From: Alphaproteobacteria bacterium
GTDB taxonomy: Bacteria; Pseudomonadota; Alphaproteobacteria; Rhodospirillales; Casp-alpha2
Length of the DNA stretch: 64,000 nt
Direction: 5' to 3'
Assembly (NCBI GenBank): GCA_024279135.1
Contig: JAJRRU010000031.1
Location: forward strand, 1 to 64,000
The position numbers and the translations under genes are program-made. The number at the start of each line of letters is the position of its first letter. The stretch's first letter is position 1. Positions 23,536 to 53,128 of the stretch are shown in pieces. The notes under the pieces are model-generated. The model saw nothing but the letters and a program-made list of their open reading frames with translations, ran no database searches and was not told the DNA's origin.

Positions 23536-23655
23536 CCTATTCTCGATATGTATGATGGATTCTCTATAACACAGCTACAGATTGAAGGTCAAGACCCGGT
23601 TCACGGAGGCGCTTCCAGAGAAAGGAGGCGGCAACTTAACTTCCCCCCACAAAAG

Positions 23656-23725
23656 CAAAAACCCCGCAGCGACAACTGCGAGGTTATGCGGGATAGAATC
23701 CCTTAAGAATATTAGCCTGTTCTTG
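23656..23725 (-). ncRNA. repABC-type antisense RNA (ctRNA)
   Basis: On the minus strand a -35 TTGACA (23759-23754), a 16-bp spacer and -10 TAAAAT (23737-23732) predict a start near 23725. About 35 nt downstream is a hairpin pairing CCCGCA (23692-23687) with TGCGGG (23668-23663), followed by a U-rich run (23661-23651). This gives a ~70-nt RNA antisense to the repC leader, the position and form of the ctRNA that sets copy number and incompatibility in repABC plasmids. Confidence 0.75.
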
Positions 23726-23752
23726 AGTTGCATTTTATCTCAATGGAGACGT

Positions 23753-30339: not shown

Positions 30340-30349
30340 GGGGAATAAA

Positions 30350-31478: not shown

Positions 31479-32717
31479 TCAAAATAAATTCTGCGCATAT
31501 GAATTTTTGGCATTTCGCTCTTTAACATGCCCCAAAAATTCTTCCAGATTCATAAGCCAGTTTAATTGAGCAGAGCGGTAAGTGGTATGAAGTGCTGTGG
31601 GTAAAACCAGTTGTAGTTTCATAGCCTGCATTTCATTTGTCTGGTTTTCCGATATACCGGGCTCAAGGGTTATCAGGTGTTTGTGTTCAATACGCGCCGC
31701 TTCGGCAAGAACCTGCCGCCATCTGTCCTTGCAAGTGGTCTTGGCACCCAGCATTACCAGGCTTTCAATGGGAAAAACCTGGTCATTGTAAGCTTCCACA
31801 GACGGGAATAGAAAATCCGGCCTTGAGTTGTCTTCCGTTTTCTTTCCTCTGGTATTTTGGATGTTATACAGGGCGAATATTGCTTCAAGATGATTTTCAA
31901 ATGCCAGACCGGCCCTGACCATACGTCGGTTAAGGACGCTCCGGGATAAATCAATAAAGCTGTCAACATCAATCCCGTCAATACTGGCAAAGCCGTCTTT
32001 CAACTGGTTTTCAAGAATATGTCGCTCCATCCTTCGGAAAAGAACTTCTTCCCGTTCCATCCAGGTCATGAGGACTGAATCCGGGTTATCGGTAGCGCTG
32101 ACATCATCCAGTGTTGATCTTGCAAATTCCGAGAAGATACGTGTGTCAGGCAGCTTGCCTCCAAAGCGTTCCAGCATTAAATCAAGATGGCCGGTCTCCG
32201 GTTCTTCCGGTTCCAGCCCCAGCTCTTCAAGTATATAACGCGTCGCGAAGTCTGAATCTGCCCGACTGTCGTTCTGAACTTCTTCATAAATAAACTGTAA
32301 TTCCAGTTGCTCCCGGACACCAAAAAGCCAGGCAAGCTGATTTTCCATCGTGCTGTTTGCTGGCGACAGGATAACCATCATAGAGCCGTCAGGACAGGTG
32401 CCGAAAAAAACGGCATCACCTTCACTGGCCATTTCCATAACTGTTGTCGTCTTGAAATACAGCCGGTACTCATCACGAGGGGGTTTTCGTGATTGATACC
32501 AGGTCATAAAACCATCTTCTGAAATTGCTTCCTGTTCTCCTCCTATCCATAAAAACTGCGTCTGGATGCCCTTTCTGTCTTCAGTGCCTAAAAGCTGTTT
32601 AAGCGCTACGACACCATTAAATTCATGCTGGTTTGACTTATGAGGGCTTGCCTCTACTGCCCTCAATCTCTTGATGGCAACACCTGTAAAACATTTTGCC
32701 AGTAACCCTTGCGTCAT
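31479..32717 (-). CDS. EcoRII-type restriction endonuclease
   Basis: 412 aa from ATG 32717, overlapping the vsr stop. The C-terminal catalytic domain is clear: NSRPDFLFPSVEAYNDQVFP, then MLGAKTTCKDRWRQVLAEAA (catalytic Lys/Arg region) and RIEHKHLITLEPGISENQTN, as in EcoRII. The N-terminal ~170 residues would be the effector (DNA-sensing) domain. EcoRII cleaves CCWGG only when several sites interact. The neighbouring Dcm-type methylase should protect the same sequence. Length is normal for the family. Confidence 0.9.
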   Translation of the reverse strand: MTQGLLAKCFTGVAIKRLRAVEASPHKSNQHEFNGVVALKQLLGTEDRKGIQTQFLWIGGEQEAISEDGFMTWYQSRKPPRDEYRLYFKTTTVMEMASEGDAVFFGTCPDGSMMVILSPANSTMENQLAWLFGVREQLELQFIYEEVQNDSRADSDFATRYILEELGLEPEEPETGHLDLMLERFGGKLPDTRIFSEFARSTLDDVSATDNPDSVLMTWMEREEVLFRRMERHILENQLKDGFASIDGIDVDSFIDLSRSVLNRRMVRAGLAFENHLEAIFALYNIQNTRGKKTEDNSRPDFLFPSVEAYNDQVFPIESLVMLGAKTTCKDRWRQVLAEAARIEHKHLITLEPGISENQTNEMQAMKLQLVLPTALHTTYRSAQLNWLMNLEEFLGHVKERNAKNSYAQNLF

Positions 32718-33175
32718 GTGTTTACCCCCCCGGTGATTTCCCTGAAAGCTATGTCGCTTTCCAGCCACATAGATGTTTCTTTCAGTACGTCATTAACCAA
32801 TTTACGTGTTTGGCCTTTGAGAGCACACTCCCATATGTGGAGTGTGCGCCAGTCGAGTTTGGCTAGAGCTTCAAGATTTCGAGAGTCTCGATCCTGATTG
32901 CCAGTAATTTTTGTTTTCCAGAAATCCCGCCGCATGTAAGGCCACTTGAAAAGGTGACAGTCATGGCCATGCCAGAAACAACCTTGCACCTGAATAACGG
33001 CCCTGTATTTCGGGAACACCAGGTCCGGTTTGCCAGGGAGGTGTTTGCCGTGCAATCGAAAGCGATACCCCATACGGTGCAACCCTCGACGAATTATCAA
33101 CTCAGGTTTTGTGTCCTTACCCTTAATCCCTGCCATCATTCGGCTGCGGGTGGATTTGCTTACAACATCAGGCAA
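32714..33175 (-). CDS. vsr: very short patch repair endonuclease Vsr
   Basis: 153 aa. SKSTRSRMMAGIKGKDTKPE, then YRFRLHGKHLPGKPDLVFPK (catalytic Asp), AVIQVQGCFWHGHDCHLFKW (zinc/active site) and KTKITGNQDRDSRNLEAL. Nicks 5' of T in T:G mismatches that arise when 5-methylcytosine in the Dcm context deaminates. Overlaps dcm (8 bp) upstream and the EcoRII gene (ATGA) downstream, so the three are one operon. Confidence 0.95.
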   Translation of the reverse strand: MPDVVSKSTRSRMMAGIKGKDTKPELIIRRGLHRMGYRFRLHGKHLPGKPDLVFPKYRAVIQVQGCFWHGHDCHLFKWPYMRRDFWKTKITGNQDRDSRNLEALAKLDWRTLHIWECALKGQTRKLVNDVLKETSMWLESDIAFREITGGVNT

Positions 33176-34427
33176 TACGTTGCGCGGCTTTCTGATCCTG
33201 TATGACCTCTTCCAGAAGCCACGGGACTAAATGTCGTGCTACAGCTTCCACAACCGGTACGGCAACGGCATTGCCAAACTGTTTATAGGCCTGTGTATCA
33301 GAAACCGGAATTTTAAAATCACTGCCGTTCAGGCTGTCAAAGCCCATCAGTCTGGCGCATTCGCGTGGTGTCAGGCGACGCGGGTTCTTGCGTGACCCCT
33401 GGTCCACAAGAATTTCGGATCCATCCTTGTAATAACGGGCAGAAAGTGTGCGGGAAACACTGTCAGGATAGACAAGACCAAAACCAAATCCGTTGCCTTT
33501 TGCCTCGTGCTTTGCCTTGTAGTTTTGCAGGTATGCCCAGAGCTTGTCAGAGAGTGTATATTTATCAAGAACCTTTCTCTTTGGCCCGCCAGTAAACTGG
33601 GCATCAAATGGTTCAGTTCCGTCTCCTGGATGAAGAATATCTTTCATGCGGGGGCCAGTGGCTGATGCAGGAATTGCGAGATCATCAATGTCGAAGTCGT
33701 TTGCATCACGGAAGCCAATAATGAAAATACGTTCCCGGTGCTGGGGAACGTAGGCCTTCGCATCAATTACACGTGTCTGAACCTGGTATTCCAGGTCATT
33801 TTCAAGTGTGTTCATAATACGTTTGAATGTATTGCCTTTATCATGGCTCGCCAGATTTTTGACGTTTTCAAGCAGAAAGACCCGAGGTTGATGGTACTCG
33901 ATAATGCGAGCAACATCAAAAAACAGGGTGCCTTGTGTATCACAATGAAAACCATGTGCGCGACCCAGTGAATTTTTCTTGGATACTCCGGCAAGTGAGA
34001 ATGGTTGACATGGAAATCCGGCCAATAACAGATCATGCTCTGGGATGTCACAGGCCTTGATATCCGTTATGTCGCCATCAATAATATGGTTGTCGTCAGG
34101 GTAATTCTCACGATAAGTTTGCGCAGCGTATTTGTTCCACTCGCTGGTAAAAACACATTCCCCGCCCAGAGGCTCGAAACCCCGGCGGAGCCCGCCGATA
34201 CCTGCGAACAGGTCGATAAATCGGAATTTTGAATCTAGTTTGGGTGCTTGCCGATCCTTAATGATACTTTTAAGGGTATGAATAACAGCAGGGCGAGGCT
34301 CTGACTCTCCGCTTTCAAAGCGATAAAGCATACGAGTTGAATAGCCAAGTTTCAAAGCCAAACCTTCATCTATATGAAGATTAGCCTGTTCGCGGAGTTG
34401 AGTAAATTTTGTCATTAATTTTTGCAT
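33168..34427 (-). CDS. dcm: DNA (cytosine-5) methyltransferase, Dcm type
   Basis: 419 aa from ATG 34427 (AGGGGA ten bases upstream). The frame is open further to 34718, but that part is IS3 orfA debris. Motif I FIDLFAGIGGLRRGF; motif IV LLLAGFPCQPFSLAG with the catalytic Cys; motif VI VFLLENVKNL; motif VIII QHRERIFIIGF; motif X QFGNAVAVPVVEAVA. An N-terminal ~75-residue segment resembles an HTH (LREQANLHIDEGLALKLGYS, RMLYRFESGESEPRP), as in other Dcm/EcoRII methylases, and could autoregulate. Expected to methylate the inner C of CCWGG. Confidence 0.92.
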   Translation of the reverse strand: MQKLMTKFTQLREQANLHIDEGLALKLGYSTRMLYRFESGESEPRPAVIHTLKSIIKDRQAPKLDSKFRFIDLFAGIGGLRRGFEPLGGECVFTSEWNKYAAQTYRENYPDDNHIIDGDITDIKACDIPEHDLLLAGFPCQPFSLAGVSKKNSLGRAHGFHCDTQGTLFFDVARIIEYHQPRVFLLENVKNLASHDKGNTFKRIMNTLENDLEYQVQTRVIDAKAYVPQHRERIFIIGFRDANDFDIDDLAIPASATGPRMKDILHPGDGTEPFDAQFTGGPKRKVLDKYTLSDKLWAYLQNYKAKHEAKGNGFGFGLVYPDSVSRTLSARYYKDGSEILVDQGSRKNPRRLTPRECARLMGFDSLNGSDFKIPVSDTQAYKQFGNAVAVPVVEAVARHLVPWLLEEVIQDQKAAQRIA

Positions 34428-34587
34428 TTTCGGTATCCCCTGGGACGATTTTTGACAGTATGGCACGTATGAGTCCCAGAAGGCAACATAAAAATGAGTA
34501 CAAACAGGGAACAAATTACTATTGATCGAACATCCTCTGAAGCCGACTGGTCGATAAGTTAGAAGGCAGGGAGAATGTCTAAGATTA

Positions 34588-34786
34588 GTGTTTGATCTGG
34601 TTGGGGTGAACATCGAACTGTTGGCGAGTTCGCCAATCGTTTGCTCCGCACGAACGACTGCAAGGGCAACCTTCAATTTGAAAACGGGTGTGTGATTACG
34701 GCGTGGACGTTGTGTCATGATGGTTCTAATGTTGATGGCAAAGTAAGCCAGATATAGGTCAAATACCCACTTATCTCAACTTTTCA
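34588..34786 (-). pseudogene. IS3-element end and orfA relict
   Basis: Read leftward from 34786, the end TGAAAAGTTGAGATAAGTGG and the orfA start MTQRPRRNHTPVFKLKVALA match the IS at 11171 (there TGAACAGTTAAGATAAGTGG and MTRRPRRNHTPVFKSKVALA). After about 40 codons the frame is shifted (ELANSSMFTPTRSN for LAQQFDVHPNQ), and the homology stops near 34588. The reading frame remains open into dcm. The other end supplies the last codons of the relaxase gene. Confidence 0.8.
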
Positions 34787-36477: not shown

Positions 36478-38685
36478 TTACATACCGAGGCCAACGGCCT
36501 TCTGTTTGTCTTTGGTCTTGTCCGGGGTTTTGTTCTGGGCTTTGTCCTGAACCTGTCGCTGCCTGATTTGGCTTTGTATTTGGCGAACCACTTCCACGCT
36601 ATGCGAGGCGTTTGCAAGATCGTTCCAGTCGCTTAAACCTTCGGCTTTTTGTTTGCCGTTAAACACAGGGGCCACAACGTAGCCATCGACCGCATGGGCG
36701 GCCTGGATAGACTTGATAATGCCCACATTTCCCATGGGGCGGCTTTCCAGCTTGTGATCGTTATCCGCTGCAATGACGATATGAGCGTTCGGATGTTGCT
36801 TGCGGATAGCTTCGGCAACCGGCTTGAGGTTGCTGGCATCAAAGGCCACGACCGTGGGGCGGCTCATAGCCTCATAGACACTTGCGGCGGTGCTGTATCC
36901 CTCGGCAATGAAGATCGTGCCGGTGTCGATCCCGGTCGAACGCTTCGGCCCCGGATTTTCATCCATGAGCTTGAGAGGATCAATAACATGCATCAAGCCG
37001 CTCTTGCGACCGCTGATCGTAAACCGCTTTAAGCCGTCCTCGGAGATGCTCTGCACCGACCACAGTTTGCCGTCCGTATCGCGCAATGGCACCAACGTGC
37101 GGCCCTTGCTGTCTTCTCTTAGATCATACCCATCGACCTTCTTGCCTGTTAGGTAAGTCGTCATTTTATCACCTATGTTGACAGCCTTGTCCCATTTGCC
37201 TTGGGCAACGATTGCCGCTTCTTTCTGTGCAGCCAATCGTTCACTGGTTCGTTCTGCCGACCGTTGGGCGGCTTCGGCCTTCAAAGCAGCACGTTGCTCA
37301 TCGCTCAAACGTTCGCCGCGTGAAACCCAGCGGATCAATTCGCCAGATTTAAAGTTCTGAATTTGACCGTTAGGAATACCATCGAGGAAGGCGCGATAAC
37401 TGGCGTTGTTTTCACCCTTCTTGTCGTCCTCTAAAGAAACCCGGTGCCATTTTCCATCCATAACGGGCGTGGCCTTTATCACCACACCGGCGGCTTTCAG
37501 CTCGTCGGTAAACTCGGCAACAGGATCATGCTTTTTTTCATTGAGCACCGGCTGGTTTTCCGGCAACCATTTATGGAGTGACTTCCAGTCAATCCCGACC
37601 GGCATATACCAGCTCTTGGCCTTACGGTCCCATTTGGCCCCACCCGCTTTAGCCTGGTCTTTCTCTTCAAAAGGAACATCAAGGTAGACTCGATTAGCCT
37701 TTGAGGGCGATGGTCCGGGTGGAATATATTCGGCTTCATGCTCTTGTTTGGTTTCCATGACTATACCCTTTCGATTGTCCTGGGCCTTGCGTTCTATCTC
37801 GGCCCGCAATTCTGGTTCTTTGATCCAGCTTGCGATTTGGTCGGCATCACGTGCGGCCTGAAACAGCACGTTTCGATCTTCCTTGATGGCCTTGAGCCAA
37901 TTTCCCACATATGAAGCGTGTCGCGCCGGGTAGTGACCAAGGCCCAATTCGCGGCTAACCATGTAGCTTGCCATTTCAGCGCGAAGCTCTTCCTTGGCAT
38001 AGATCTCGGAACCAAATGGTCCGAAGTCCCGCGCCATGCGGGAACTGTGGCCCGTGGCATGACCCAGCTCGTGCAGGGCCGTGGCGTAATACTCATAAGC
38101 ACCCTTGAACGATGATTTATCGGGCAGATGGATTTCATCATGGGCAGGACTGTAATAAGCCCTGTCAGCCTGGTCATGTTTGATAGGAACATTACCACCC
38201 GCAAGCAGCTCTTCTGCTTTCTCAATAGGATCAAACCCCGGTTCAGGCGCGATGTAAGGCTCCAGGCCGTCAATCTGAGAGGCGTTGAAGACGTTTGCAT
38301 AGAATACCTTGGGGCGATCCAGCTTATATGTGATCTTTTTGGCGTTGCCATGCTCATCGAGCACCGGCTTGCCTTTGTCGTCTTTGAGAACGGCGGTTTC
38401 ACGCCACTTCCAGTATTCGACCTGGCAAGATTTTTCACCGGCGCGTATCTGAGCGTCCAGGCTTACGGCCTGTTTGTAGGTCAGCCATCTAGGATCGTCA
38501 TGACCTTGCATGTTCAGCCATAAAGCGTTGATGCCCTGGTAGGCCCGTTTGCTGATTGGATTGTGCGGTGCGTTGGTAATTACGCCATGTTTCCAGGGCT
38601 TTTGAAACGGTGCAGTTCCTGCCTCAATCTGGCGTATCATTTCCTCGGCAACATTTTCCCGCCACGGCTTGCGATTTTTACTCAT
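36478..38685 (-). CDS. ArdC-like antirestriction protein fused to Toprim (TraC-like)
   Basis: 735 aa from ATG 38685 (GGAGGG upstream). Order: ArdC N-terminal ssDNA-binding domain (NVAEEMIRQIEAGTAPFQKP), a metalloprotease-like segment with HELGHATGHSSRM (HExxH-like, residues 205-209), a DUF5710-like unit (VYLDVPFEEKDQAKAGGAKW), a charged linker, and a Toprim domain (FIAEGYSTAASVYEAM, then HIVIAADNDHK). ArdC protects incoming plasmid DNA from restriction, and Toprim suggests primase activity in recipient cells, as in TraC of IncP/IncW plasmids. Probably delivered with or expressed early after transfer. Confidence 0.85.
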   Translation of the reverse strand: MSKNRKPWRENVAEEMIRQIEAGTAPFQKPWKHGVITNAPHNPISKRAYQGINALWLNMQGHDDPRWLTYKQAVSLDAQIRAGEKSCQVEYWKWRETAVLKDDKGKPVLDEHGNAKKITYKLDRPKVFYANVFNASQIDGLEPYIAPEPGFDPIEKAEELLAGGNVPIKHDQADRAYYSPAHDEIHLPDKSSFKGAYEYYATALHELGHATGHSSRMARDFGPFGSEIYAKEELRAEMASYMVSRELGLGHYPARHASYVGNWLKAIKEDRNVLFQAARDADQIASWIKEPELRAEIERKAQDNRKGIVMETKQEHEAEYIPPGPSPSKANRVYLDVPFEEKDQAKAGGAKWDRKAKSWYMPVGIDWKSLHKWLPENQPVLNEKKHDPVAEFTDELKAAGVVIKATPVMDGKWHRVSLEDDKKGENNASYRAFLDGIPNGQIQNFKSGELIRWVSRGERLSDEQRAALKAEAAQRSAERTSERLAAQKEAAIVAQGKWDKAVNIGDKMTTYLTGKKVDGYDLREDSKGRTLVPLRDTDGKLWSVQSISEDGLKRFTISGRKSGLMHVIDPLKLMDENPGPKRSTGIDTGTIFIAEGYSTAASVYEAMSRPTVVAFDASNLKPVAEAIRKQHPNAHIVIAADNDHKLESRPMGNVGIIKSIQAAHAVDGYVVAPVFNGKQKAEGLSDWNDLANASHSVEVVRQIQSQIRQRQVQDKAQNKTPDKTKDKQKAVGLGM

Positions 38686-38905
38686 GGCTACCCTCCGTGC
38701 CTTTAGAATCATCGAGGACGATGCCGGTTGCCGGGTCCACGTCGAAGCGAGAATTGTCGGCTTCAACTGCACTCAGGGCGGCTTCCTCAAACGCGCCCAT
38801 GGTATCGGCGACATCCGGGTCCACACTCACCGGCACACCGCTTGTGGTTGCGCGTTCGATGGTTTCAATTTCAGCCTGGGTATGATCGTCATTTGGCATT
38901 TTCAT
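38678..38905 (-). CDS. small acidic hypothetical protein
   Basis: 75 aa, strongly acidic, no recognised motif (MKMPNDDHTQAEIETIERAT, ends LDDSKGTEGSHE). It overlaps the ArdC start by 8 bp and begins 3 bp after virD4, so it is translated as part of the transfer unit. Its charge and place before an antirestriction gene could suggest DNA mimicry, but there is no direct sign of it. Confidence 0.65.
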   Translation of the reverse strand: MKMPNDDHTQAEIETIERATTSGVPVSVDPDVADTMGAFEEAALSAVEADNSRFDVDPATGIVLDDSKGTEGSHE

Positions 38906-40754: not shown

Positions 40755-41192
40755 TCAATAATTCACTTCTGAGTGAATTTTTTGGATTAATTTATGGTCT
40801 GGAAGCAATAGAAGTTGTTTCATTCTGTTACGTAAAAATTTGATCAGCACCGCATCTACGAGCTGAGGATCAGACTGTGCTTTCAGCTTTTTTCTGAGGC
40901 TGATTTCAAATGAATTGATTTGGCTTTTAAATTCTAGTTCCCGCTCAAACCGATCATTCATTCTTTTTGCGGCAAATATTACGCTTGTATGATTTAAGCC
41001 GCCAAAATGACCAGCGATCATACATAAGGAATAGGGTGTTAGTTGTTTTGTCAGATAGATAGCAATGTGGCGACACATTACATCATGCGCCTGGCGAGAC
41101 CTGGACGTGAAAACGGTCTTAGAAACATTAAGTTTTCGGGCTATAAAATTTTGTATGATTTCCCAATGGGGTCTGATGATTGGTGTTGTCAT
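40755..41192 (-). CDS. stand-alone DnaA domain IV-like DNA-binding protein
   Basis: 145 aa. Residues ~10-82 resemble only domain IV of DnaA: ARKLNVSKTVFTSRSRQAH, DVMCRHIAIYLTKQLTPYSL, and the DnaA-box-reading motif GGLNHTSVIFAAKRM (GGRDHTTV in DnaA). There is no AAA+ domain; the C-terminal ~60 residues are a basic helix. It lies between virB11 (3 bp) and virD4 (10 bp). It could regulate the unit or bind DnaA-box-like sites at oriT/oriV. That role is inferred. Confidence 0.8.
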   Translation of the reverse strand: MTTPIIRPHWEIIQNFIARKLNVSKTVFTSRSRQAHDVMCRHIAIYLTKQLTPYSLCMIAGHFGGLNHTSVIFAAKRMNDRFERELEFKSQINSFEISLRKKLKAQSDPQLVDAVLIKFLRNRMKQLLLLPDHKLIQKIHSEVNY

Positions 41193-41195
41193 GGC

Positions 41196-42146
41196 TCACA
41201 CCGCCTTGTCATATTTGAGTACATAATTATCAGTGCGTGGCTCGTAGATATCGGTGATCTGCCGCCAGCCGTCTTTGTTACGGCGTATCTGGACCACCAC
41301 GTCCACAAGCTCGCTCAGGAACTCAGGAACCCGTGGCATGGTTTCTCCGGCCCAGGCTATGTTCTGATCAAATTTGCGGTGAATGGCCTGATAGGGGCTT
41401 TCTGCGTGAATTGTACACATAAAGCCGGTGACACCGGAGTTCAGGGCGGCAAGGGCTGCAAATGCGTTCTGGGTAGAGATTTCACCGAATAGAATATGAT
41501 CCGGCGTGACCCGCATAAGATGATCATAGAGCTGTCGCCAATCGAGCATACCAGACGCACCGCTGGCTTCTCGTTCGGCCAGCAAACCTACACCGTCCCA
41601 GAACCGTTCAATGTACAGCTCCGGCGTATCCTCTACCGCAATAACCCGCTGATCATCGGGCAGGGTTTCAATCATCATATTAAGCAAGGTTGTCTTGCCG
41701 GTATTGGTAGCCCCCGATACGATGATATTCTTCTCTGTACGCACTGCGGACAGTAAATAATTCTTGATATGTTTATCAGCTCCAACCTCTTCCCAGGTCG
41801 GCGTAAAGGGGTGTTTACAGCGAATAGCTAGAGACACACCCGATTGAACACTGGCACCAACCAAGCATTCAAATCGGTGACCGCCCGGCAGGACACAGGA
41901 CAATTTAGGGTGCGAGTCCGAATCAAACTTGATCCCGTGTCGTGTGGCAAGGGCCGTACAGATGGTTTCAATTTCTGCCAGATTGAGTTCTGGCGCGAGA
42001 ACGGCCATTTTTCCTTTCCCTCGCAGATCGGTAATCACCTGACCCGACTTAACCATACGCAATTCGATAGTATCAAGACCACTATAAAACGCGCTTAAAG
42101 GTTCAAGAACCCGGTGGAGTAATGCTTCATTTGATTGAATAGACAT
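41196..42146 (-). CDS. virB11: T4SS ATPase VirB11
   Basis: 316 aa from ATG 42146, which shares one base with the stop of the upstream gene. Walker A ISGATNTGKTTLLNMM-like (VSGATNTGKTTLLNMMIE), Asp box VIAVEDTPELYI, Walker B region PDHILFGEISTQNAFAALAA, His box GFMCTIHAESPYQAIHRK. Hexameric cytoplasmic ATPase for pilus assembly and substrate transfer. The length fits VirB11. Confidence 0.93.
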   Translation of the reverse strand: MSIQSNEALLHRVLEPLSAFYSGLDTIELRMVKSGQVITDLRGKGKMAVLAPELNLAEIETICTALATRHGIKFDSDSHPKLSCVLPGGHRFECLVGASVQSGVSLAIRCKHPFTPTWEEVGADKHIKNYLLSAVRTEKNIIVSGATNTGKTTLLNMMIETLPDDQRVIAVEDTPELYIERFWDGVGLLAEREASGASGMLDWRQLYDHLMRVTPDHILFGEISTQNAFAALAALNSGVTGFMCTIHAESPYQAIHRKFDQNIAWAGETMPRVPEFLSELVDVVVQIRRNKDGWRQITDIYEPRTDNYVLKYDKAV

Positions 42147-44335
42147 TAGTATAATGTCCACCCCTGTGCGGTGTTCCAATTTAAAGAGGTTGGTGATCCA
42201 ACAGTATTTTGGCATGAGGGCGGTACAGCACCAGCTCCTGTTGGATACCATTGATTAAATTCATCAACGCCATTTATGTAACAATAACTACCTGTTCCAC
42301 AGTTTCTATTGCTGGTTGCAGTTGAATTAGTGATTACAGCACCATCTTCACGACTTACAACATATGTACCCTCGTATACACCAGTTCGTCTTGCTTGCGC
42401 TCCACCAGATTGAACGCAATTAGTTTGAACACCTGAAACATTACTGCTTATTAAAGTCCATACAGAAGGCCAGGTTGTTACGGAACACGCAGTCGTCGGG
42501 CCTATCTGTGAACCGGCACCAATCGCTTTTTCATAGATAGTATTGTCCGGACGCTTCCATTGTTCAAAATTGCTGGTTTCTGCAAACTTGGAACAACCTT
42601 CATAGGAAACAGTGCCATTTTCCCTTTCTTCTGTACCTGTTAAAATATATGGCATTTGCACAGCACCAGATAGAACCTGGCTGACAGCAATATCGTAACG
42701 TCCGGATGCTGGACTAATATAAACTGTGGAAAGCTCATATGAATAAAGTTGATCGTTGTTATCTTGCCAGCCAGCGACCTCTACTTGGTGGGCATAAACC
42801 TCCGTTGATTGCTGGCAGTAGGTTACATAATCACGGAAGCCATTATTCATATAATAAAATCGCTCCATGCCATAACTGGCCCCGGCAGTTAAATCATGTT
42901 CCCATGTTGATGGTGCATTACATGTGTCAGTGGTGGAAACAACTGAAGTAGATGAGGTTGGATCAGGTGTGCATTCAGAAATGTATTCAATAGCACCGTT
43001 AATGCTAATTTCCGTTCGATACTGGAACGTCGTTTCCATGGCAGTCATGTCTACAATTTCAGTGCAAATATTATTTCCTGCTGAAGTTGTGAAGGCTTTG
43101 TTATGAACATAAGTAATGCCGGTTTCAATGCAGGGTGTCGCCTGATAAACGAGCCCTGCATCTGAATACACCCACATAGCAAGCTCATAAGAAACATTCG
43201 CATTATAATCATGGCGCATGGTGCAACCATCTATGGTCTGTGCCATAGGCAAGGCTACTTCAATGGTAGAAGCTTCACAGCCACGCACCTGTATTTCTAC
43301 ATTGCTATCATCTTGATAGATAAGAGCCGCTTGAGGCACCGCCTCAAATGCAGCGTAATCAAGATAAATGGAACAGCTTTCTGGTCTCTCCACAATGGGA
43401 AATACTTTTTCACTATCATCAGCACACGATGTTACTTCCTGTCGTGCTCCACCGGCATCGGTGTAGTACAGCACATATTGAGCCGTGGCCGTAAATGCGG
43501 CCAGATCAACATTTTCAGAACACACCGAATAACTATTTTGCAACGGGAATGCATTGCTTAAATCGTCGGTACATTCAGACGTACTGATCACGGCACCGTC
43601 CTTGACAGTCTCGGTGCGGCTTTGCTGGTAGGCTTGCATTTGTGGAATATCAATCCGTACCGAGCAACCCGCTACGGTCACATTAATGACCTCTTCGCCG
43701 TCAGGAGCTACGTAAACAGATTCCGGTGCCTGGTACGCGCCCGCCAGGTCGTTGCTCTGACCACTGCCACTGTTTTGTTGCTGAGAACCGGGATCATTCT
43801 GGGTGATAATGGTTTCTTGCTCTACGGCCTCGTCTTCTTCTTGTGCCACAGTTTCGGTTTCAGCCAGCTTTTCCAAAGCGGCAATTAAAGAAACCGCATC
43901 GCCTTCTACAATAATATCCTGTCCTGGTTCCAAACGTGTTTGGTCCATGTTGAATTGGGCATTAAAGATGTTTGATGGCAGCAGTTCCCGCGCACCGTTC
44001 TTTTCAACCGCTGTGAGGACCAGTTGACCGATACGTTGACCTTCATATTCCACGTATCGAGTAAAGGCTTTGACGGTAATGCCCGTGGTCAATGAGGGAG
44101 AAATACCAGTAACAGACAACCCGCCCAGGTCAATGGCAACCGGCTCGTTCAAGGGAACGTCTGTAATCAAAAGAGGCCGTACCAGTATTTGAGTTTTCTC
44201 GATGATTAAACCCGGGGACACTCCTTCCGGAGTTTGCTCACCTTGCGTTAAGGTGATTTGTGCGAATACAAATCCATTCATGACAATAAAGCCCAGGCTA
44301 ACAATCAATATTGATATGATTTTTTTAATAATCAT
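42146..44335 (-). CDS. secreted six-repeat Cys protein in T4SS operon
   Basis: 729 aa, unrecognised. A signal peptide (residues 1-25, core IISILIVSLGFIVMNGF, cut before QITLTQ). A beta-rich N-terminal domain (~26-150) and a Gln/Ser/acidic linker (~160-200). Then six ~50-residue repeats, each with a Cys pair about 31 residues apart: 224/255, 272/304, 321/353, 371/402, 424/455, 472/507. Repeat starts look like CSVRID, CSENVD, CSIYLD, CTMRHD, CTEIVD. The C-terminal ~200 residues hold more Cys and aromatic residues. Disulfide-linked surface repeats would fit an adhesin or pilus-tip protein. It lies between virB10 and virB11 with one-base overlaps. Confidence 0.85.
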   Translation of the reverse strand: MIIKKIISILIVSLGFIVMNGFVFAQITLTQGEQTPEGVSPGLIIEKTQILVRPLLITDVPLNEPVAIDLGGLSVTGISPSLTTGITVKAFTRYVEYEGQRIGQLVLTAVEKNGARELLPSNIFNAQFNMDQTRLEPGQDIIVEGDAVSLIAALEKLAETETVAQEEDEAVEQETIITQNDPGSQQQNSGSGQSNDLAGAYQAPESVYVAPDGEEVINVTVAGCSVRIDIPQMQAYQQSRTETVKDGAVISTSECTDDLSNAFPLQNSYSVCSENVDLAAFTATAQYVLYYTDAGGARQEVTSCADDSEKVFPIVERPESCSIYLDYAAFEAVPQAALIYQDDSNVEIQVRGCEASTIEVALPMAQTIDGCTMRHDYNANVSYELAMWVYSDAGLVYQATPCIETGITYVHNKAFTTSAGNNICTEIVDMTAMETTFQYRTEISINGAIEYISECTPDPTSSTSVVSTTDTCNAPSTWEHDLTAGASYGMERFYYMNNGFRDYVTYCQQSTEVYAHQVEVAGWQDNNDQLYSYELSTVYISPASGRYDIAVSQVLSGAVQMPYILTGTEERENGTVSYEGCSKFAETSNFEQWKRPDNTIYEKAIGAGSQIGPTTACSVTTWPSVWTLISSNVSGVQTNCVQSGGAQARRTGVYEGTYVVSREDGAVITNSTATSNRNCGTGSYCYINGVDEFNQWYPTGAGAVPPSCQNTVGSPTSLNWNTAQGWTLY

Positions 44336-45420
44336 TATTCAGCTCCTATTTTGTGGATATACCAGTCTTTGGCCGGACGGATTTGTACCCGTGTGCCTTG
44401 AGCAATGGTAATAATTGGGGCAAGATTTACGGTTTGCTCCAGGACAGAAGCGGTGATTTCACCGAGTTTCTGGCTCAGTTCTTCTGAACCCTTGTCAGCA
44501 ACGTTCCCTAAAGGGCTGTTTTCTGAGTTAGAGGAAGCAAAGGCAGTGGCAAAGCGCACGGCTGTAGAAATACCAGTTAGCAGAAACGCCGTGCCGTAGC
44601 GTTCCCAAAAGCGATTATCTACTTCACCAGAAACTCCGGCGCGGCCCTGCACATCACCTGCCGTGGCACTCAGTTGGAGAATTTCTGCCCGGTGACCGCC
44701 CATTAAAATTCGGGTGCATTTAAAGGCAATACGGGTATCGCCCTGGCGACCAGGAGATTCATAATTACAGATCAGGCGTGACCCCTTGGGGATCAGAACG
44801 TTACGGCCATGATAGCCGAATACATCCCTTGTGGTCTGTATAATAGCCTGACCACCTGACCCACTATCGAGCTGGCTGTTCAGGCCGGTTTCCAGAATAC
44901 CGCTGATATAGCGATCTGCGGCCAGAATCCGGCTGTTGTCCACCGGCAGACTGGAAAGCACCCCGTCTGCGTCATATTTTTCTTGCGTGGTTTTCGGTTG
45001 TAGTGACAGCGCGTCACCGGGCAGGGTCAGCGCGGCAGGTTCAATCAGGGAAGCAGTTTGCACTGCCGGTATAACAACTCGCTCACCCCTTATACTTCCT
45101 ATAGAAAAATTGGTCGCATCTGACGTGGTAAAGACCGCCTCCAAAGCCAACCGATAAGGATTTGGTGGCTTTGGAGGCGGGGCCGTGACTGCTACAGGGA
45201 CAGTCAACGGAGGGAGAGGCGGCGGAGACTGGGCGGCTTGCCTGATAATAACGGCAGGGAATGGTGGCACCGCCTGTATTGGTTCAGGTGTGGGCGGCAA
45301 GGCAGCCCATGCCTTTTTATCATCATCGGGAAGAGTCGGGATTGTTGAAGCATCATTCACGGCACAAATGCCGCCAAAGGCAAGGTTGAGAGCGACCAGG
45401 GCTTCGCAGAGAATACTCAT
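44335..45420 (-). CDS. virB10: T4SS core protein VirB10
   Basis: 361 aa. One N-terminal hydrophobic segment (LVALNLAFGGICAV), a long Pro-rich stretch (residues ~30-90), then the VirB10/TrbI barrel domain: ILAADRYISGILETGLNSQL, FGYHGRNVLIPKGSRLICNY, GEVDNRFWERYGTAFLL and IAQGTRVQIRPAKDWYI. Spans the periplasm and forms the outer-membrane pore with VirB7 and VirB9. Overlaps virB9 by 4 bp. Confidence 0.93.
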   Translation of the reverse strand: MSILCEALVALNLAFGGICAVNDASTIPTLPDDDKKAWAALPPTPEPIQAVPPFPAVIIRQAAQSPPPLPPLTVPVAVTAPPPKPPNPYRLALEAVFTTSDATNFSIGSIRGERVVIPAVQTASLIEPAALTLPGDALSLQPKTTQEKYDADGVLSSLPVDNSRILAADRYISGILETGLNSQLDSGSGGQAIIQTTRDVFGYHGRNVLIPKGSRLICNYESPGRQGDTRIAFKCTRILMGGHRAEILQLSATAGDVQGRAGVSGEVDNRFWERYGTAFLLTGISTAVRFATAFASSNSENSPLGNVADKGSEELSQKLGEITASVLEQTVNLAPIITIAQGTRVQIRPAKDWYIHKIGAE

Positions 45421-46442: not shown

Positions 46443-47170
46443 GAATTCCCCCTTGGTTTAAGAATTAGATCAAGAACCGTTACACCGAGAGGATTCTCGA
46501 AACGATCTGTGCCGGTGGCACTTTGTGGCCTCGTGGTCATGTTGAGATAAACCCGAAGTTTTTTCTTCTCCACAAGCTCCTGTTTGCGCATATCCGTTTG
46601 CACAATATCCACGGCATATTTGTAGGTGCCGTGGGTGTTCTCAATGAAGTCTATGCTTTCAACGGTTATGGATCGTGTCAGTCCGGAATTGATGGCTTTT
46701 TGCACTTCGCCCGATTCAATGCGTTCCTTTTGAAAACGCCTATAAAATTTATCGTCTGTCATGCGGAAGGCTTCGCGGAATCGTTCGGTTTGAGTGATGC
46801 TATCAATCTCCAACAGCAACCGTACATAGCGTCTCGCCATGCTTTCCATGAGCAGATCGAACCCCTGAACTGTCAGTGCCCTGGCCGGTTCAATGCGGTA
46901 AAGCCTGTCGTCGGACGGATCGGCCCGCACCAGGGCGATCTCCGTTGTCTTGAGGGGAAGCAGTGCGGACCAGGCAGATAGCGATATTATTAAACAGGCA
47001 CCCAGAATTATAATAATCCCGGCCTCAAGTCGGGCAATCCATGCCAGACGTCGGTAGGCCACGGCAGAGCTATAAGGATCAGCCAGGCGCACGGACTCGT
47101 GGCGATCAAGGTCGAGAGGCTCGACAGCCATGTTTTCTTTAGACTGATTTATAGAACTCAACCACGCCAT
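46439..47170 (-). CDS. virB8: T4SS inner-membrane protein VirB8
   Basis: 243 aa (a start at 47131 is also possible). A short cytoplasmic part with DPYSSAVAYRRLAWIARLEA, one membrane helix (GIIIILGACLIISLSAWSAL) and the periplasmic NTF2-like VirB8 domain (YVRLLLEIDSITQTERFREA, SGEVQKAINSGLTRSITVES). Nucleates channel assembly. Overlaps the virB7 end by 13 bp. Confidence 0.92.
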   Translation of the reverse strand: MAWLSSINQSKENMAVEPLDLDRHESVRLADPYSSAVAYRRLAWIARLEAGIIIILGACLIISLSAWSALLPLKTTEIALVRADPSDDRLYRIEPARALTVQGFDLLMESMARRYVRLLLEIDSITQTERFREAFRMTDDKFYRRFQKERIESGEVQKAINSGLTRSITVESIDFIENTHGTYKYAVDIVQTDMRKQELVEKKKLRVYLNMTTRPQSATGTDRFENPLGVTVLDLILKPRGNS

Positions 47171-47331
47171 TCAAAGCCGCTCCCGTTATAGTCTTCAATT
47201 TGTTGACAGGCACACGGACTAAGCCGCATATAATCGGAACCACCGCTATTATTGACGGGCATTTCTGTTCGTTTACTGCCACAGGCTGAAAGCAGGAGAG
47301 TAAACGTTAATATTACAATTATATTTTTCAT
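47158..47331 (-). CDS. virB7: VirB7-like lipoprotein
   Basis: 57 aa from ATG 47331. Lipoprotein signal with lipobox LLLSACGSKRTEMP; further Cys residues in LSPCACQQIED could pair with VirB9. The position between virB6 and virB8 fits VirB7; the sequence itself is too short for homology alone. Confidence 0.75.
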   Translation of the reverse strand: MKNIIVILTFTLLLSACGSKRTEMPVNNSGGSDYMRLSPCACQQIEDYNGSGFEWRG

Positions 47332-47339
47332 AGATAACC

Positions 47340-48476
47340 TCATTTGGTTTGTCCGTAATTTTTGGCTTTGTTTATCAAGTCCTGGACCTGAGAGGCCGTA
47401 TTACCGGCAGCTTGTGAGAATGCGCTGCCAGCTCCCCCAGGATTAGTTACAACTCCTGCCGCTCCCCAACCGGCAGCAGAACCGACAGATTTAGCACCCC
47501 CCACTAAAGCACCCACAGCAGGGTGATTTTTCATAGCAATAGCCGTTGCGACTGATCCTGCCGTAATCACAGCGGCGGCTGAGTTTGTCAGGGATGATCC
47601 AGCGATAGAGTTCGCCATGCCGGTCGCCTCGGTCATGAAGGCAGTTCCAAGCCAGCCCATGGCTACAGCAAGCAGAAACGTGGGGTTCGTGATACTCACC
47701 AGCTCGTAAGCGGCCTCTTCGGAGGTAAGGCCAATTTCAAGCCCACTTACGCCGTAGAGCATGACGGCCAGTGCCGCCGTTGCACCGAACAGCACCATGA
47801 AAGCAGATATAAGTGTCCGGATACCGGCTTTCATCATGTCACGACCCCAGCCGAAGCCGAAACCAAGCATTAAAAATGGACTGAGAGTAGCCAGCATCAT
47901 GATACGGAAAATTGAGACAACCACTTGTGAAAAGTAGACGATCAATACGAGAAAATACGGCAGGACAAGAACCAGGGCGTAAAGCGATGGCATCCAATCT
48001 GTTAAGGTTGTAAGTCGGGAAATACTTCCGGCAAGTCTAAAAACAGCCATAACTCCTAACTCAGCCGCACGAACCAGAGCAACCATACCTTCGTCAAGCG
48101 GAATTGCGCCGTTTGATGATGTGACCATGACGGAGCCATGATCGCCAACCAGGAGAGCCAAACTAGCCGCACTGCCCATCATTCCAAGAGAGGCAGAATA
48201 AATGTTATTAACCAGTTCTGGACCCTGGCCCGAGAGCAGAAAACCTGCTATTAATACAAACATAAACTCTTTGGAAATGTCACCAAGAGTTGTCTGGACA
48301 AGAACCAATCGGAGGGCCTGAATGACTATCCATAAACCGGCAAATGATAAGAATAATAACCACATTGGACCGAGCAGGGTTTCGCTCAAATCCTGGGTAA
48401 ACTGGTTCGCCAGTTCCACGTATTCACTGACGATTTTACAGGTGAAGCAATTGTCGCTAGGAGTATTAACGGCCAT
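47340..48476 (-). CDS. virB6: T4SS polytopic membrane protein VirB6/TrbL
   Basis: 378 aa from MAVNTPS. About six membrane segments (LLFLSFAGLWIVIQALRLVL, YALVLVLPYFLVLIVYFSQV, SAFMVLFGATAALAVMLYGV and others), a conserved central region with SIFRIMMLATLSPFLMLGFG, and a Gly/Ala-rich C-terminal tail. Forms part of the inner-membrane channel. Its 5' end overlaps an oppositely directed ORF. Confidence 0.9.
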   Translation of the reverse strand: MAVNTPSDNCFTCKIVSEYVELANQFTQDLSETLLGPMWLLFLSFAGLWIVIQALRLVLVQTTLGDISKEFMFVLIAGFLLSGQGPELVNNIYSASLGMMGSAASLALLVGDHGSVMVTSSNGAIPLDEGMVALVRAAELGVMAVFRLAGSISRLTTLTDWMPSLYALVLVLPYFLVLIVYFSQVVVSIFRIMMLATLSPFLMLGFGFGWGRDMMKAGIRTLISAFMVLFGATAALAVMLYGVSGLEIGLTSEEAAYELVSITNPTFLLAVAMGWLGTAFMTEATGMANSIAGSSLTNSAAAVITAGSVATAIAMKNHPAVGALVGGAKSVGSAAGWGAAGVVTNPGGAGSAFSQAAGNTASQVQDLINKAKNYGQTK

Positions 48477-48987
48477 AATTAGCATCCTTATTATTTCTAC
48501 TGAGGGGCACGCTAAGGTTAGTAAGGACGAGGATTTTTTTGATTTTGAAAATGCAAAAAATATGTGGGTAGAGATTGAATCCTACGATCAAATTCTTTCT
48601 TATTATGACCGGCATTGTCCTGCTGAAACTGGTTTTAAAGGTTGGTATAAAAAATTTAAAAGAAACTCTCAAAAAGCTTTGAATGATTTGCAAAATCATC
48701 CAAATGTAGATGCAATAAAACTTTGCTACGATTGGGAACTTCTGACTGATCAATGGAATGAAATATATGGGACATGGCGAGACAGTCTTTACGCCTATGG
48801 GGGTGAAGGCTGGAATGTGAATGATAATCACCGGATGCGGGGATTGATCGAATACTTGAATATCTTTACGGGTGAAATCAACGATCTGCCGGATTGGAGA
48901 CACCCTAATAATAAAGCCGATGATATTAAAAATATGGCAGTTGGGAATGCTCGATGGTGGAACAAAAGAACCAATGCTGGTAACTAA
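48442..48987 (+). CDS. AT-rich antisense ORF with signal peptide in T4SS operon
   Basis: 181 aa from GTG 48442 (or TTG 48451 after AGGTGA). An N-terminal signal peptide (SLGVLTAIISILIISTEGHA, cut before KVSKDED) and a mature part of ~155 residues with Trp/Tyr-rich segments (YDQILSYYDRHCPAETGFKG, GTWRDSLYAYGGEGWNVNDN). No family recognised. It fills the gap between virB6 and virB5 on the opposite strand and is visibly richer in A+T than its neighbours, so it looks like an inserted cargo gene. Entry exclusion is a guess from position only. Confidence 0.65.
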   Translation: MKQLSLGVLTAIISILIISTEGHAKVSKDEDFFDFENAKNMWVEIESYDQILSYYDRHCPAETGFKGWYKKFKRNSQKALNDLQNHPNVDAIKLCYDWELLTDQWNEIYGTWRDSLYAYGGEGWNVNDNHRMRGLIEYLNIFTGEINDLPDWRHPNNKADDIKNMAVGNARWWNKRTNAGN

Positions 48988-48992
48988 GGAGT

Positions 48993-49772
48993 TCATTCTG
49001 TAACCCCGCCTTCTTCATCGCTCAGATCGACCAGTCCCACGACCGGCACACCGGCCCGCATCGAGAACACAGCTTGGACTTTCAGCATTTGTGCAAGTAT
49101 CTGGTTTTGCTTTGCCAGGGCTCTGGCGATAACCACCTGGCCCTGCCCTATGACCTGTAAGCGATCATTGCTATCAACAGACGATGCAAGAGAGCTTTCC
49201 AGCTCATTTGCAGCTTTGTTGGTTTGCTCCACATCCTTTGCGGCAACGTCAGCATGAGCCATGGCTTTTGTAATGCTATCAACGAATATCCGTTCCCGGC
49301 GTTCCTTGACGACTTTCTCTGCGGCTTCGCGCTCATCCCAAGTTGGCATTTCTGTAAATTTTTTAGGATCGACCCACAGTGTGTCGCGGTAGATCGGCGC
49401 ACCCTCACACACACTGTTAATTTCCAAATCCTTGAAATCAATATTTGGCATGAGCTTTGAAAAGTCAGGTTTCAGGCACTGCATGTCACGCCGGATTGCC
49501 GAGCCTAGAGCATCGAGACCAAAGGTAGGTATTGATATCTGGCCCATTTTGCCAACAGCATTAATTTGATCCTGCACCTTGTTAGATACATCATTTATTG
49601 CATCTAATTGCTCCTGCAATTTTGTGAGTTGGCTACTCAATTTGCCTATCGCCGCAGAATCAATAACGGCCATAGCTGCCCAAGCGGTTGCCGGTAGCCC
49701 CATAACCAGGACAGTTGATAATACAAAGGCTTTCAAGCGATGCTTTCTGATTTTTAAAGGTGGTCTTGCCAT
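48993..49772 (-). CDS. virB5: T4SS minor pilin VirB5/TrbJ-like
   Basis: 259 aa from MARPPLK. Signal peptide (AFVLSTVLVMGLPATAWAAM), then coiled-coil heptads (AAIGKLSSQLTKLQEQLDAI) and a C-terminal helix with GQVVIARALAKQNQILAQML, the VirB5/TrbJ layout. The periplasmic pilus-tip role is known for the family. Its start overlaps virB4 by 19 bp. Confidence 0.85.
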   Translation of the reverse strand: MARPPLKIRKHRLKAFVLSTVLVMGLPATAWAAMAVIDSAAIGKLSSQLTKLQEQLDAINDVSNKVQDQINAVGKMGQISIPTFGLDALGSAIRRDMQCLKPDFSKLMPNIDFKDLEINSVCEGAPIYRDTLWVDPKKFTEMPTWDEREAAEKVVKERRERIFVDSITKAMAHADVAAKDVEQTNKAANELESSLASSVDSNDRLQVIGQGQVVIARALAKQNQILAQMLKVQAVFSMRAGVPVVGLVDLSDEEGGVTE

Positions 49773-52129
49773 TTGTTCCCCCACTGATTTTTCAGGTTTT
49801 CAAGATGTTGATTGGCGTCCACACCGGCGCGGTAAAACCGTAAGGCATCCCCGAATGGTGTAAGATCAACGTCGATGATGGCACTCTCATCGAGGCCCGC
49901 CGCAGCATCACGCTTGATAACAAGTGCCTGGCGAACATCAGCCATGCCGGTGCCACAAGTGATAAAAGAAATCTGTTCTTCGTTGAGATTGAACGGCTCA
50001 AGACTCGGTATGCTAACCTGGCTGTTTGGCAAAAATATAAGCGTTGCGGTGTTCTCTAAAAACGCCTCGGCAGCACCGGAACGGTGCAGAGCTGCCGGGT
50101 CCTGGAACGCCAGGCCAACCGATCCGTTCAGCTTGCGGTATTCGCGGAACATTTCTATAGCCAGAGACTTGAAACTATCGTTCTGTAGCAGCTTTGCGGC
50201 CTCATCAATGAAGATACAAAAACCCCGTGAATTATTTGCCGCCGATTTCGATATGGCTTCGGCAATATGTGCCACCACCGGCGGGCCGAGAACCGGATCG
50301 TCCAGGGCTTCATTCATGTTAATACCCACCATGTGAGCCGTAGAGAGGAATCCGGCCAGACTGTCATGGGCTGCATTGAAGACGTGGGCGTTACGCCCTA
50401 CCCTTCCCTTGCCGTCAACGACCCAACGGGCAAAAGCCCTGCGAAGCGGGGTTCGTTTGGCAAATGACATTTCAAATATCTGGTTGAGGGTTCGTTCAGG
50501 TGTATCCAGCTTGAAAGCCATTTCTACAGCATGATTGAAAACCTGATCATCATCCTCATGTGGGGTGGAGTCTGCGGACATAGCCCGCAGGATCATATCA
50601 ATACGGTGACGGTTTTTGGGTGTGTCTTCGCCTACATCGAGCGGGTTAAGTTGCAGATCATCATAGCCTTGATAAATACCACCCATGGCTTCCACCATGA
50701 ACCTTGCCCCTTCCTTGGAATCAAATATATAACTTCTGACGTTATCAAACTTGGCAAGCCCGCCTAGCAAGTGCATGAGTAAGGTTGATTTACCGCCACC
50801 CGAAGGGGCAAACACCAGATAATTACCGATGGATTGAGGACGGCCTGAAACATGGAACTGGAAGGCATAGGCTTGACCACTTGGGGTATTGAAAAACCGG
50901 GTTGGCCTATCCCCAAAGGGGCTTTTCATCATGCCGCCTGGGGAGCTGGAAAAGGTCCAGAGAGCGGCAATATTATCGTTACGCAGGGTCAGAGGGCGCA
51001 ACAGCCCACTGGCCCCGTTTATCTTGTTTACGCCCGTGGGAAGCCGATTAAACCAGCAAATAGGTGCGCCGGTGGTTTCTACGCTATAAGAAATCCTGAG
51101 CCTACCCAGAATGTCGCTTATTCTGGTAACGATTTCCTTGAGTTCAACCTCGTCTTCACTTCGAGCAATAATTTGAAGTTGTGTGTGAAATAGTGTTGTT
51201 TCGCCTTCTGATAATAACTGGATAGTGGCGTCACACTCATTGGCTAAAGTTGCATTACCAATAAAGCCTTTCCGTTGCTCATTTGATTTTCGTTTGAGCA
51301 GACCAATACTAAGCTCGGTATCCCAGGGAACACAGATTTGAGAGATTTCAAGGTCCCCGGGCAGGGCCATAAGATCAACAAGAATTTTACCATTTACAAC
51401 TTCCGGCCATGCGCGGATAGCTATGACCTTGTGCAGTTTTTTTGTGGGCGTAAAAGTCTCGATTATGCCGTTCTTATGAATATGCAAATCACTGGCCGGG
51501 ATATTGCCTGAAATGTTTTCAGATACAGCCAGAAGGTCGTCACGCAGATCGCCGCACACGAGGAAGTTCATAAACCCGGTGAGCGGGCAGGGTTGATCTT
51601 GCTTAATTGGTTTTTCCAACAATTGAGGTGCGTATTCCCCGGCCATGGCTATCAGCTTCTTGGACGATTCAACAAGTGGCATGACCGATGAGCTGGAAAT
51701 CAGCACATACCAGTCAATATAATAACTTGATTGAAATTGTTCCCGTTCCGCATCGCCAATTTCTTGCAAGGCCTGGGACGGCCAGGTGGCGTTAAAGCTT
51801 ATGTCCCGGTTGCGCTTTATGCCAAACAAACGGATCGCACAGCCCAGCATTCCCATACCATGCAGTAACTCAGATCGGACCTTGAGCATGGAATCTTGTT
51901 GTACCTGGACCTTGGCATCATAACTGACACCATCCAGTTTAAAGACACGGAACATCACGCCGGATTTAAGCGATACCGTACTACCGTCAGGCTCGATGCA
52001 ATCCAGATCAAGCTCTTCGGCAAGCCAATCATGTTCAATAGTGCCTAACATCCAGTTTCGGGCAACGGGATTAATCAAGGCACCCGCCGCCACCGCACTT
52101 AGTCCGGTTATGAGTAGGTCACTCCACAT
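49754..52129 (-). CDS. virB4: T4SS ATPase VirB4
   Basis: 791 aa. Begins with a short hydrophobic segment (LLITGLSAVAAGALINPVAR). Walker A LVFAPSGGGKSTLLMHLL; SYIFDSKEGARFMVEAMGG; Walker B region GFCIFIDEAAKLLQNDSFK; VGLAFQDPAALHRSGAAEAF. Inner-membrane ATPase energising pilus assembly. Shares one base with the virB3 stop. Full length. Confidence 0.93.
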   Translation of the reverse strand: MWSDLLITGLSAVAAGALINPVARNWMLGTIEHDWLAEELDLDCIEPDGSTVSLKSGVMFRVFKLDGVSYDAKVQVQQDSMLKVRSELLHGMGMLGCAIRLFGIKRNRDISFNATWPSQALQEIGDAEREQFQSSYYIDWYVLISSSSVMPLVESSKKLIAMAGEYAPQLLEKPIKQDQPCPLTGFMNFLVCGDLRDDLLAVSENISGNIPASDLHIHKNGIIETFTPTKKLHKVIAIRAWPEVVNGKILVDLMALPGDLEISQICVPWDTELSIGLLKRKSNEQRKGFIGNATLANECDATIQLLSEGETTLFHTQLQIIARSEDEVELKEIVTRISDILGRLRISYSVETTGAPICWFNRLPTGVNKINGASGLLRPLTLRNDNIAALWTFSSSPGGMMKSPFGDRPTRFFNTPSGQAYAFQFHVSGRPQSIGNYLVFAPSGGGKSTLLMHLLGGLAKFDNVRSYIFDSKEGARFMVEAMGGIYQGYDDLQLNPLDVGEDTPKNRHRIDMILRAMSADSTPHEDDDQVFNHAVEMAFKLDTPERTLNQIFEMSFAKRTPLRRAFARWVVDGKGRVGRNAHVFNAAHDSLAGFLSTAHMVGINMNEALDDPVLGPPVVAHIAEAISKSAANNSRGFCIFIDEAAKLLQNDSFKSLAIEMFREYRKLNGSVGLAFQDPAALHRSGAAEAFLENTATLIFLPNSQVSIPSLEPFNLNEEQISFITCGTGMADVRQALVIKRDAAAGLDESAIIDVDLTPFGDALRFYRAGVDANQHLENLKNQWGNKWQDHL

Positions 52130-52457: not shown

Positions 52458-52772
52458 CTAGCTTGTAGCTTCAAGCAGCAGAGCGATACTTTCTGGCCCT
52501 GCTATGATCAACAGACCGCCAAAGATAATCATGCCGAGTCTTTTGAAATTTGGCTCACCGGAAAAGGTGATATAGATACCAACACCAATCACGGCCAGAC
52601 CAATGACAATCGCACCGATCTGCACCAGGCCGGAGCGCAGGGCTTCAATCAGGCCTGTGGCTGGTTTGACCCATTCAGAATTTTGAGCATGTGCAACTTC
52701 CGGCATAAGAAGTACCACAGCGAAGAGGCTCAAAGTTGTTAAGACAGATAAATTTATTGATTTAACAATCAT
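52458..52772 (-). CDS. virB2: major pilin VirB2 (copy a)
   Basis: 104 aa from ATG 52772. A signal region ending LLMPEVAHAQ, then VirB2 core: two hydrophobic helices (IGAIVIGLAVIGVGIYITF and LGMIIFGGLLIIAGPESIAL) around FSGEPNFKRL. The canonical copy. It lies 10 bp after copy b. Confidence 0.88.
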   Translation of the reverse strand: MIVKSINLSVLTTLSLFAVVLLMPEVAHAQNSEWVKPATGLIEALRSGLVQIGAIVIGLAVIGVGIYITFSGEPNFKRLGMIIFGGLLIIAGPESIALLLEATS

Positions 52773-52782
52773 GTGAGGGTTC

Positions 52783-53118
52783 CTATTTGAGAATGATAAA
52801 AGCGAGAATGGGGATGCAGATAAGAGCTGCAAACATACTGATTGCAGACAAAGTTCTGACAGGGCCGTGGTGCCGAGCAAGCCGTAATAAATTGGGTTCC
52901 CCAGAAATAATGATGCAAATACCAGCTCCAATTATGAAAAATCCGATGATAATCGCACCAATCTGGTCCATGTTGGAGCGCAAGACTTCAATGAGGCTAG
53001 TCTCTGCGTTGACCCATTCAGCATTATTTTGAGCCAGAGCAACTTCCGGCATAAGAAGTACCGCAGCAAAGATGCTCTGGATTACGACGACAGGCGGGGT
53101 TAGAAATTTAGGCATCAT
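52783..53118 (-). CDS. chimeric VirB2-like pilin (copy b)
   Basis: 111 aa. The N-terminal ~75 residues match VirB2 copy a (LLMPEVALAQNNAEWV, then IGAIIIGFFIIGAGICIIIS, GEPNLLRL). The tail (VRTLSAISMFAALICIPILA-FIILK) instead matches the C-terminal anchor of the gene just upstream (ARILSAINIVAGLICIPVLV-FLFLK). At the DNA level 52783-52860 resembles 53129-53210 at a 346-bp offset. This is the expected product of a tandem duplication across the two genes. Whether it is assembled into the pilus is unknown. Confidence 0.8.
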   Translation of the reverse strand: MMPKFLTPPVVVIQSIFAAVLLMPEVALAQNNAEWVNAETSLIEVLRSNMDQIGAIIIGFFIIGAGICIIISGEPNLLRLARHHGPVRTLSAISMFAALICIPILAFIILK

Positions 53119-53128
53119 GAGACAGTTC

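Follow-up and report, generated by a model that had tools for sequence, protein, structure and literature searches.

For a 729-residue protein encoded between virB10 and virB11, in a stretch of alphaproteobacterial DNA of 64,000 nt (hereafter, the window), there is strong support for the view that it is exported and is a part peculiar to a single T4SS lineage. The gene, designated X here, starts with an ATG, lies at 42146-44335 on the minus strand and encodes a Cys-repeat protein that constitutes a new protein family. On sequence features and by analogy, X is probably a T4SS-attached stalk at the donor surface whose variable tip contacts the recipient, similar to TraN in function while unrelated to it in sequence. 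Partner choice and stabilisation by VirB/VirD4-type (MPF_T) machines are far less understood than in F plasmids.

The X gene and its place in the virB operon

The strand opposite X (plus) contains stops throughout the interval when read forward. On the coding strand, X is joined to each neighbour by the sequence TAATG: the virB10 stop (44337-44335) shares one base with the X initiation codon (44335-44333), and the X stop (42148-42146) shares one base with the virB11 ATG (42146-42144). The initial annotation had pointed to these overlaps and to the absence of any standard VirB protein from this slot, and was right on both counts. The upstream partner, virB10 (44335-45420, minus strand), matches TrbI with an E value of 2.8e-43; virB11 (41196-42146, minus strand; longest ORF 41196-42251) matches TIGR02788 (E 1e-43). 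Like these two, the surrounding VirB9, VirB8, VirB4 and VirD4 proteins were assigned by Pfam/NCBIfam matches. The VirB2-like pilin of the operon was recognised by a TrbC match, and a VirB5-like protein (48993-49784) by a weak Pfam/NCBIfam match in the right position. A virB7-like lipoprotein gene (47158-47343, minus strand) specifies the lipobox LLLSAC and its product resembles the lipoprotein in the same slot of pMSR-1. A relaxase of the MobA/VirD2 type is found near the operon.

Relatives of X comprise 43 distinct complete sequences from Alphaproteobacteria, Betaproteobacteria and Desulfovibrio. In alphaproteobacteria the gene is carried by many plasmids and islands. They occur in six plasmid-bearing genera, among them Nitrosospira (Betaproteobacteria) and Desulfovibrio, and the host genome itself carries a second T4SS (L007, G000:C8) with its own X, 48% identical overall and 55% identical in the tip. 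A profile search with a three-sequence alignment detected 17 X loci on named genome contigs; the same contigs scanned with the single X protein as query gave no match. Within the host's order, relatives are present in 47 of 317 genomes and in 21 of 115 genera. Outside the order they are rare: sampling across the phylum yielded them in four of 398 genomes, three of which belong to the host's order.

At every locus where both flanks are visible, X lies between virB10 and virB11 and on the same strand, in agreement with the claim that the protein is particular to this T4SS lineage; the refuting outcome named in the initial annotation, homologues confined to places outside T4SS loci, did not occur. 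Conversely, in the host's order X adjoins 47 of the 49 VirB11 places of the lineage (defined by E <= 1e-74, the X and VirB11 tables being compared by eye), and the remaining two are at contig ends. Plasmid pMSR-1, which carries an X homologue, is typed as MPF_T by MOB-suite. Two marks of an MPF_T T4SS component, a conserved operon position and co-occurrence with the machine, are thus found for X. Given this linkage and the near-universal co-occurrence with VirB11, X is a constant part of the machine in one MPF_T lineage and has gone unannotated there. In one genome (G052; L006 1381-4035), X runs at about residue 420 into a serine recombinase, generating an 884-aa fused ORF with Resolvase/Recombinase domains; the fusion is an insertion into X.

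Several other genes of the window are worth recording. The VirB2-like pilin gene (52458-52931) is overlapped by an ORF at 52783-53268 (minus strand), the N-terminal halves of the two products being similar; this ORF is a tandem duplicate of the pilin gene and may be degenerate. Between virB11 and virD4, a 145-aa product (40755-41192, minus strand) has as its only domain the C-terminal one of DnaA, which binds DNA (Pfam E 9e-15). Adjoining the relaxase, at 36478-38772 (minus strand), is a fusion of ArdC-type anti-restriction, zincin-like metallopeptidase, DUF5710 and Toprim domains. Genes for an EcoRII-type restriction endonuclease, a Vsr endonuclease and a C5 cytosine methyltransferase adjoin one another near the transfer region (31479-34718, minus strand), and beside them (28180-31438, plus strand) a protein with a HATPase domain at each end is followed by a response-regulator-like protein. 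This last segment, matched weakly by type II restriction models in PADLOC, possibly encodes a defence pair. The presence of a RepC replication protein (23582-25027, plus strand) suggests a repABC-type replicon, which the contig probably is; citrate synthase and ferredoxin-oxidoreductase genes are also found on it.

Domains, cysteines and predicted structure of X

The X protein begins with a signal-peptide-like stretch, MIIKKIISILIVSLGFIVMNGFVFA, within residues 1-25 (44261-44335, minus strand, as for all segments of X). This stretch has no lipobox and is also seen in the homologues inspected; beyond it, no segment of X reaches transmembrane level in hydropathy plots. There follow a Cys-free N-terminal beta domain with a long helix at its end (residues ~45-165; 43841-44203; AlphaFold pLDDT ~85-95) and a linker rich in acidic residues, Gln and Gly, predicted to be flexible from its composition and low pLDDT (residues ~166-214; 43694-43840). 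Six disulfide-type beta repeats, the putative stalk, occupy residues ~215-516 (42788-43693), as judged from Cys spacing, repeat alignment and a pLDDT mostly above 90. They are followed by a post-repeat beta domain containing the conserved C581 and C617 (residues 517-617; 42485-42787) and by a hypervariable, exchanged C-terminal tip of 112 aa (residues 618-729; 42146-42484), although divergence may start some 50-60 residues earlier.

The repeat cysteines form the pairs 224/255, 272/304, 321/353, 371/402, 424/455 and 472/507, spaced by 31, 32, 32, 31, 31 and 35 residues, with 17-22 residues separating successive pairs. Each of the six repeats, ~49 aa long, holds one pair, and the repeats align with each other. 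The reading frame, the Cys positions and the aligned repeats therefore bear out the original description of a signal peptide followed by six repeats with Cys pairs 31-35 residues apart. Six more cysteines (581, 617, 640, 679, 685 and 708) are found after the repeats, bringing the total to 18. A nine-sequence alphaproteobacterial alignment shows no variation at any of the 12 repeat cysteines, and the layout is found again in the 43 distinct complete homologues; for both reasons, the pattern cannot be ascribed to chance. After the last repeat, the next two cysteines likewise follow at conserved intervals, of 74-78 and then 35-37 residues, except in the two most distant proteins.

The 150 residues preceding the first repeat are Cys-free in 43/43 homologues. 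In their mature form, 42 of the 43 have an even number of cysteines, a count taken over related sequences that are not independent of each other; evenness is to be expected if all cysteines pair as disulfides in an oxidising compartment. The number of repeats varies: it is usually six, but rises to seven in Desulfovibrio, eight in Roseibium, nine in L026 and eleven in L025. The Insolitispirillum homologue (L030 5749-9312), of 1187 aa, has 15 repeats, 2.5 times the usual number.

An AlphaFold model of X was built with 15 homologues. The structure prediction called for by the initial annotation thereby reached pLDDT >90 for most of the repeats and the post-repeat domain, while the linker and parts of the C-terminal tail, including the tip, were of low confidence. 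A separate model covering the N-domain and two repeats had a mean pLDDT of 84.5. No significant match to X was found in Pfam, NCBIfam, PHROGs or PDB sequences, and even at E <= 1 Pfam and NCBIfam returned no family, hence no TraN, VirB5/T4SS or TrbI model. Sequence and fold searches showed no similarity to known adhesins. Fold searches with the whole model returned E values down to ~3e-5, mostly at probabilities below 0.6, with TM below 0.12 and rmsd above 30 A; these alignments were put down to the elongated beta rod and dismissed as meaningless. An origin from phage tail fibres was likewise discarded, relatives of X being absent from phage records and viral contigs.

One lead came from the N-domain/two-repeat model, which Foldseek aligned over 80 columns with the C-terminal domain of TrwE/VirB10 in the R388 O-layer (probability 0.80, E 0.33). 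As this match is sub-threshold and a profile comparison of X with VirB10 found nothing, kinship with VirB10 was not accepted and the match is kept as a lead only. In the literature, no description of the gene was found among open-licence papers, and a keyword search of the unified-nomenclature review (PMC12857230) did not turn up the phrase 'between virB10'.

Exchange of the tip and the proposed role of X

Comparison of homologues identifies the C-terminal ~110-150 residues of X as an exchanged module. In the Magnetospirillum loci L008 and L023, the X bodies are 75% identical, the VirB10 proteins 72% and the VirB11 proteins 79%, with no similarity between the tips (last ~100 residues; z = -1). 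The L023 tip instead matches those of L025 (z 28.8) and of the far more distant L009 (z 10.8) and L004 (z 7.8). Grouping the tails of 40 X proteins gave three large types and three singletons. When tip types are placed on the body tree, at least 10 changes are needed, where five would do without exchange. The borders of the module are visible in DNA: between the Thalassospira-type loci L051 and L052, identity is ~85-94% through virB10 and the repeats, 35-52%, a background level, in the tip and ~90% in virB11.

Protein identity medians were calculated for eight closely related Thalassospira-type operons. While VirB2-VirB11 and VirD4 have medians of 87-97%, and the N-domain and repeats of X 92% and 95%, the two halves of the post-repeat domain give 87% and 51%, and the tip falls to 45% with a minimum of 24%. 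These figures bear on an alternative that we consider unlikely, namely that X adds a periplasmic or embedded structural subunit to the outer-membrane core complex, is needed for assembly and not for touching the recipient, and has a tip that varies under weak constraint. A body conserved like the core proteins, translational coupling to virB10 and the weak resemblance to the TrwE/VirB10 C-terminal domain would all suit such a subunit. However, abrupt DNA breakpoints and the recurrence of tip types in distant bodies are signs of module exchange and not of drift, the profile comparison with VirB10 is empty, and an array of 6-15 repeats is ill-suited to tight assembly.

The preferred reading, recognition or mating-pair stabilisation by a surface stalk, is drawn from the combination of a fixed T4SS gene, export, a disulfide-stapled stalk that differs in length between homologues, and a tip swapped amid conserved surroundings. 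The signal peptide would export X, and the conserved Cys-free N-domain would most likely dock it at the outer-membrane end of the T4SS. The flexible acidic linker and the disulfide-stapled rod of beta repeats would raise the tip off the donor, and the tip would bind a receptor on the recipient; X would thereby stabilise or select the mating partner. The sequences themselves show the fixed T4SS locus, the export signal, paired cysteines, differing repeat numbers and repeated exchange of tips; that X lies on the outer surface, docks to the core complex and binds the recipient is what we infer. The proposal agrees with the part of the initial annotation that saw in X a surface adhesin or recipient-binding factor, which receives indirect support from the tip exchange, the varying number of repeats and the even-Cys rule. 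Its suggestion of a pilus-associated tip appears less likely. Indeed, it is very improbable that X resides on the extracellular pilus, as a tip or minor subunit, instead of being anchored at the cell surface: the export signal, elongated shape and variable tip would suit such a place, but VirB5 and VirB2-like pilin genes already occupy their usual places in the operon and X, large and multi-repeat, is unlike known VirB5.

Apart from X, the eight operons have a single variable gene, an ORF that runs antisense between virB5 and virB6 and has a median identity of 58%. In the window it lies at 48322-48987 (plus strand) and encodes a putative export signal; the same slot is filled by a related ORF in pMSR-1 (E 2e-8) and in Thalassospira-type operons (E ~1e-20). 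The family is hypervariable, with two main C-terminal types, and its member in the window is a candidate entry-exclusion gene. With a plausible exclusion gene at hand, X might be pictured as what entry or surface exclusion acts on in the donor, its tip variants marking plasmid exclusion groups. Against this, tip type and antisense-ORF type assort independently in the eight operons (Spearman rho -0.21, p 0.27), and we hold the idea to be very unlikely. Still less credible is the idea that X rides in the operon as a phage-defence element or a variable decoy at the surface, for example by masking pilus-specific phage receptors; surface hypervariability is also common under phage pressure, yet the fixed core-operon position and the conserved body point to a part of the machine. 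Turnover of the tip of a recipient-binding stalk could also answer phages or exclusion.

In a more specific version of the proposal, distinctly unlikely in our estimate, the N-domain of X would be VirB10-like and X would form a second outer-membrane-core subunit, with one disulfide-stapled stalk rising from every copy in the ring. The machine would then be surmounted by a crown of exchangeable tips, with a reach set by the number of repeats (6-15). Were this so, X would give MPF_T conjugation its first modular determinant of recipient specificity, one that arose independently of TraN. Whichever reading holds, recipient choice in these plasmids is directly testable, since nature supplies sets of operons whose main difference is the tip.

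Comparison with known systems

X resembles VirB10/TrbI in the adjacency of their genes and in the weak fold lead of its N-domain; it differs in having neither a TrbI domain nor sequence-profile similarity. The contact factors that a recent review names for MPF_T systems are VirB5 and KikA/Pep (PMC12624023). The VirB5/TraC pilus-tip adhesin and KikA-Pep of pKM101 act on the donor side, as proposed for X. Unlike VirB5, for which the operon has a separate gene, X is large and multi-repeat and matches no VirB5 model.

The closest functional parallel is offered by TraN of F-type plasmids, in which a conserved base carries a variable tip that sets recipient specificity (PMC13104618). X itself is not a TraN: it matches no family, and hhalign against R100 TraN, which is present as two ORFs in its record and was compared piece by piece, gave probabilities below 1%, in a comparison of limited sensitivity with a single TraN sequence. 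It also differs from TraN in belonging to an MPF_T operon, between virB10 and virB11, in the C-terminal position of its variable region and in its variable repeat number. Nevertheless, X shares with TraN (MPF_F) the character of a large, exported, Cys-rich protein of a conjugation operon, having a signal-peptide-like N-terminus and 18 cysteines (the R100 TraN pieces are Cys-rich too), and it combines, like TraN, a conserved base with an exchangeable tip. That two unrelated proteins share this base-plus-exchangeable-tip logic would indicate that partner recognition has evolved convergently.
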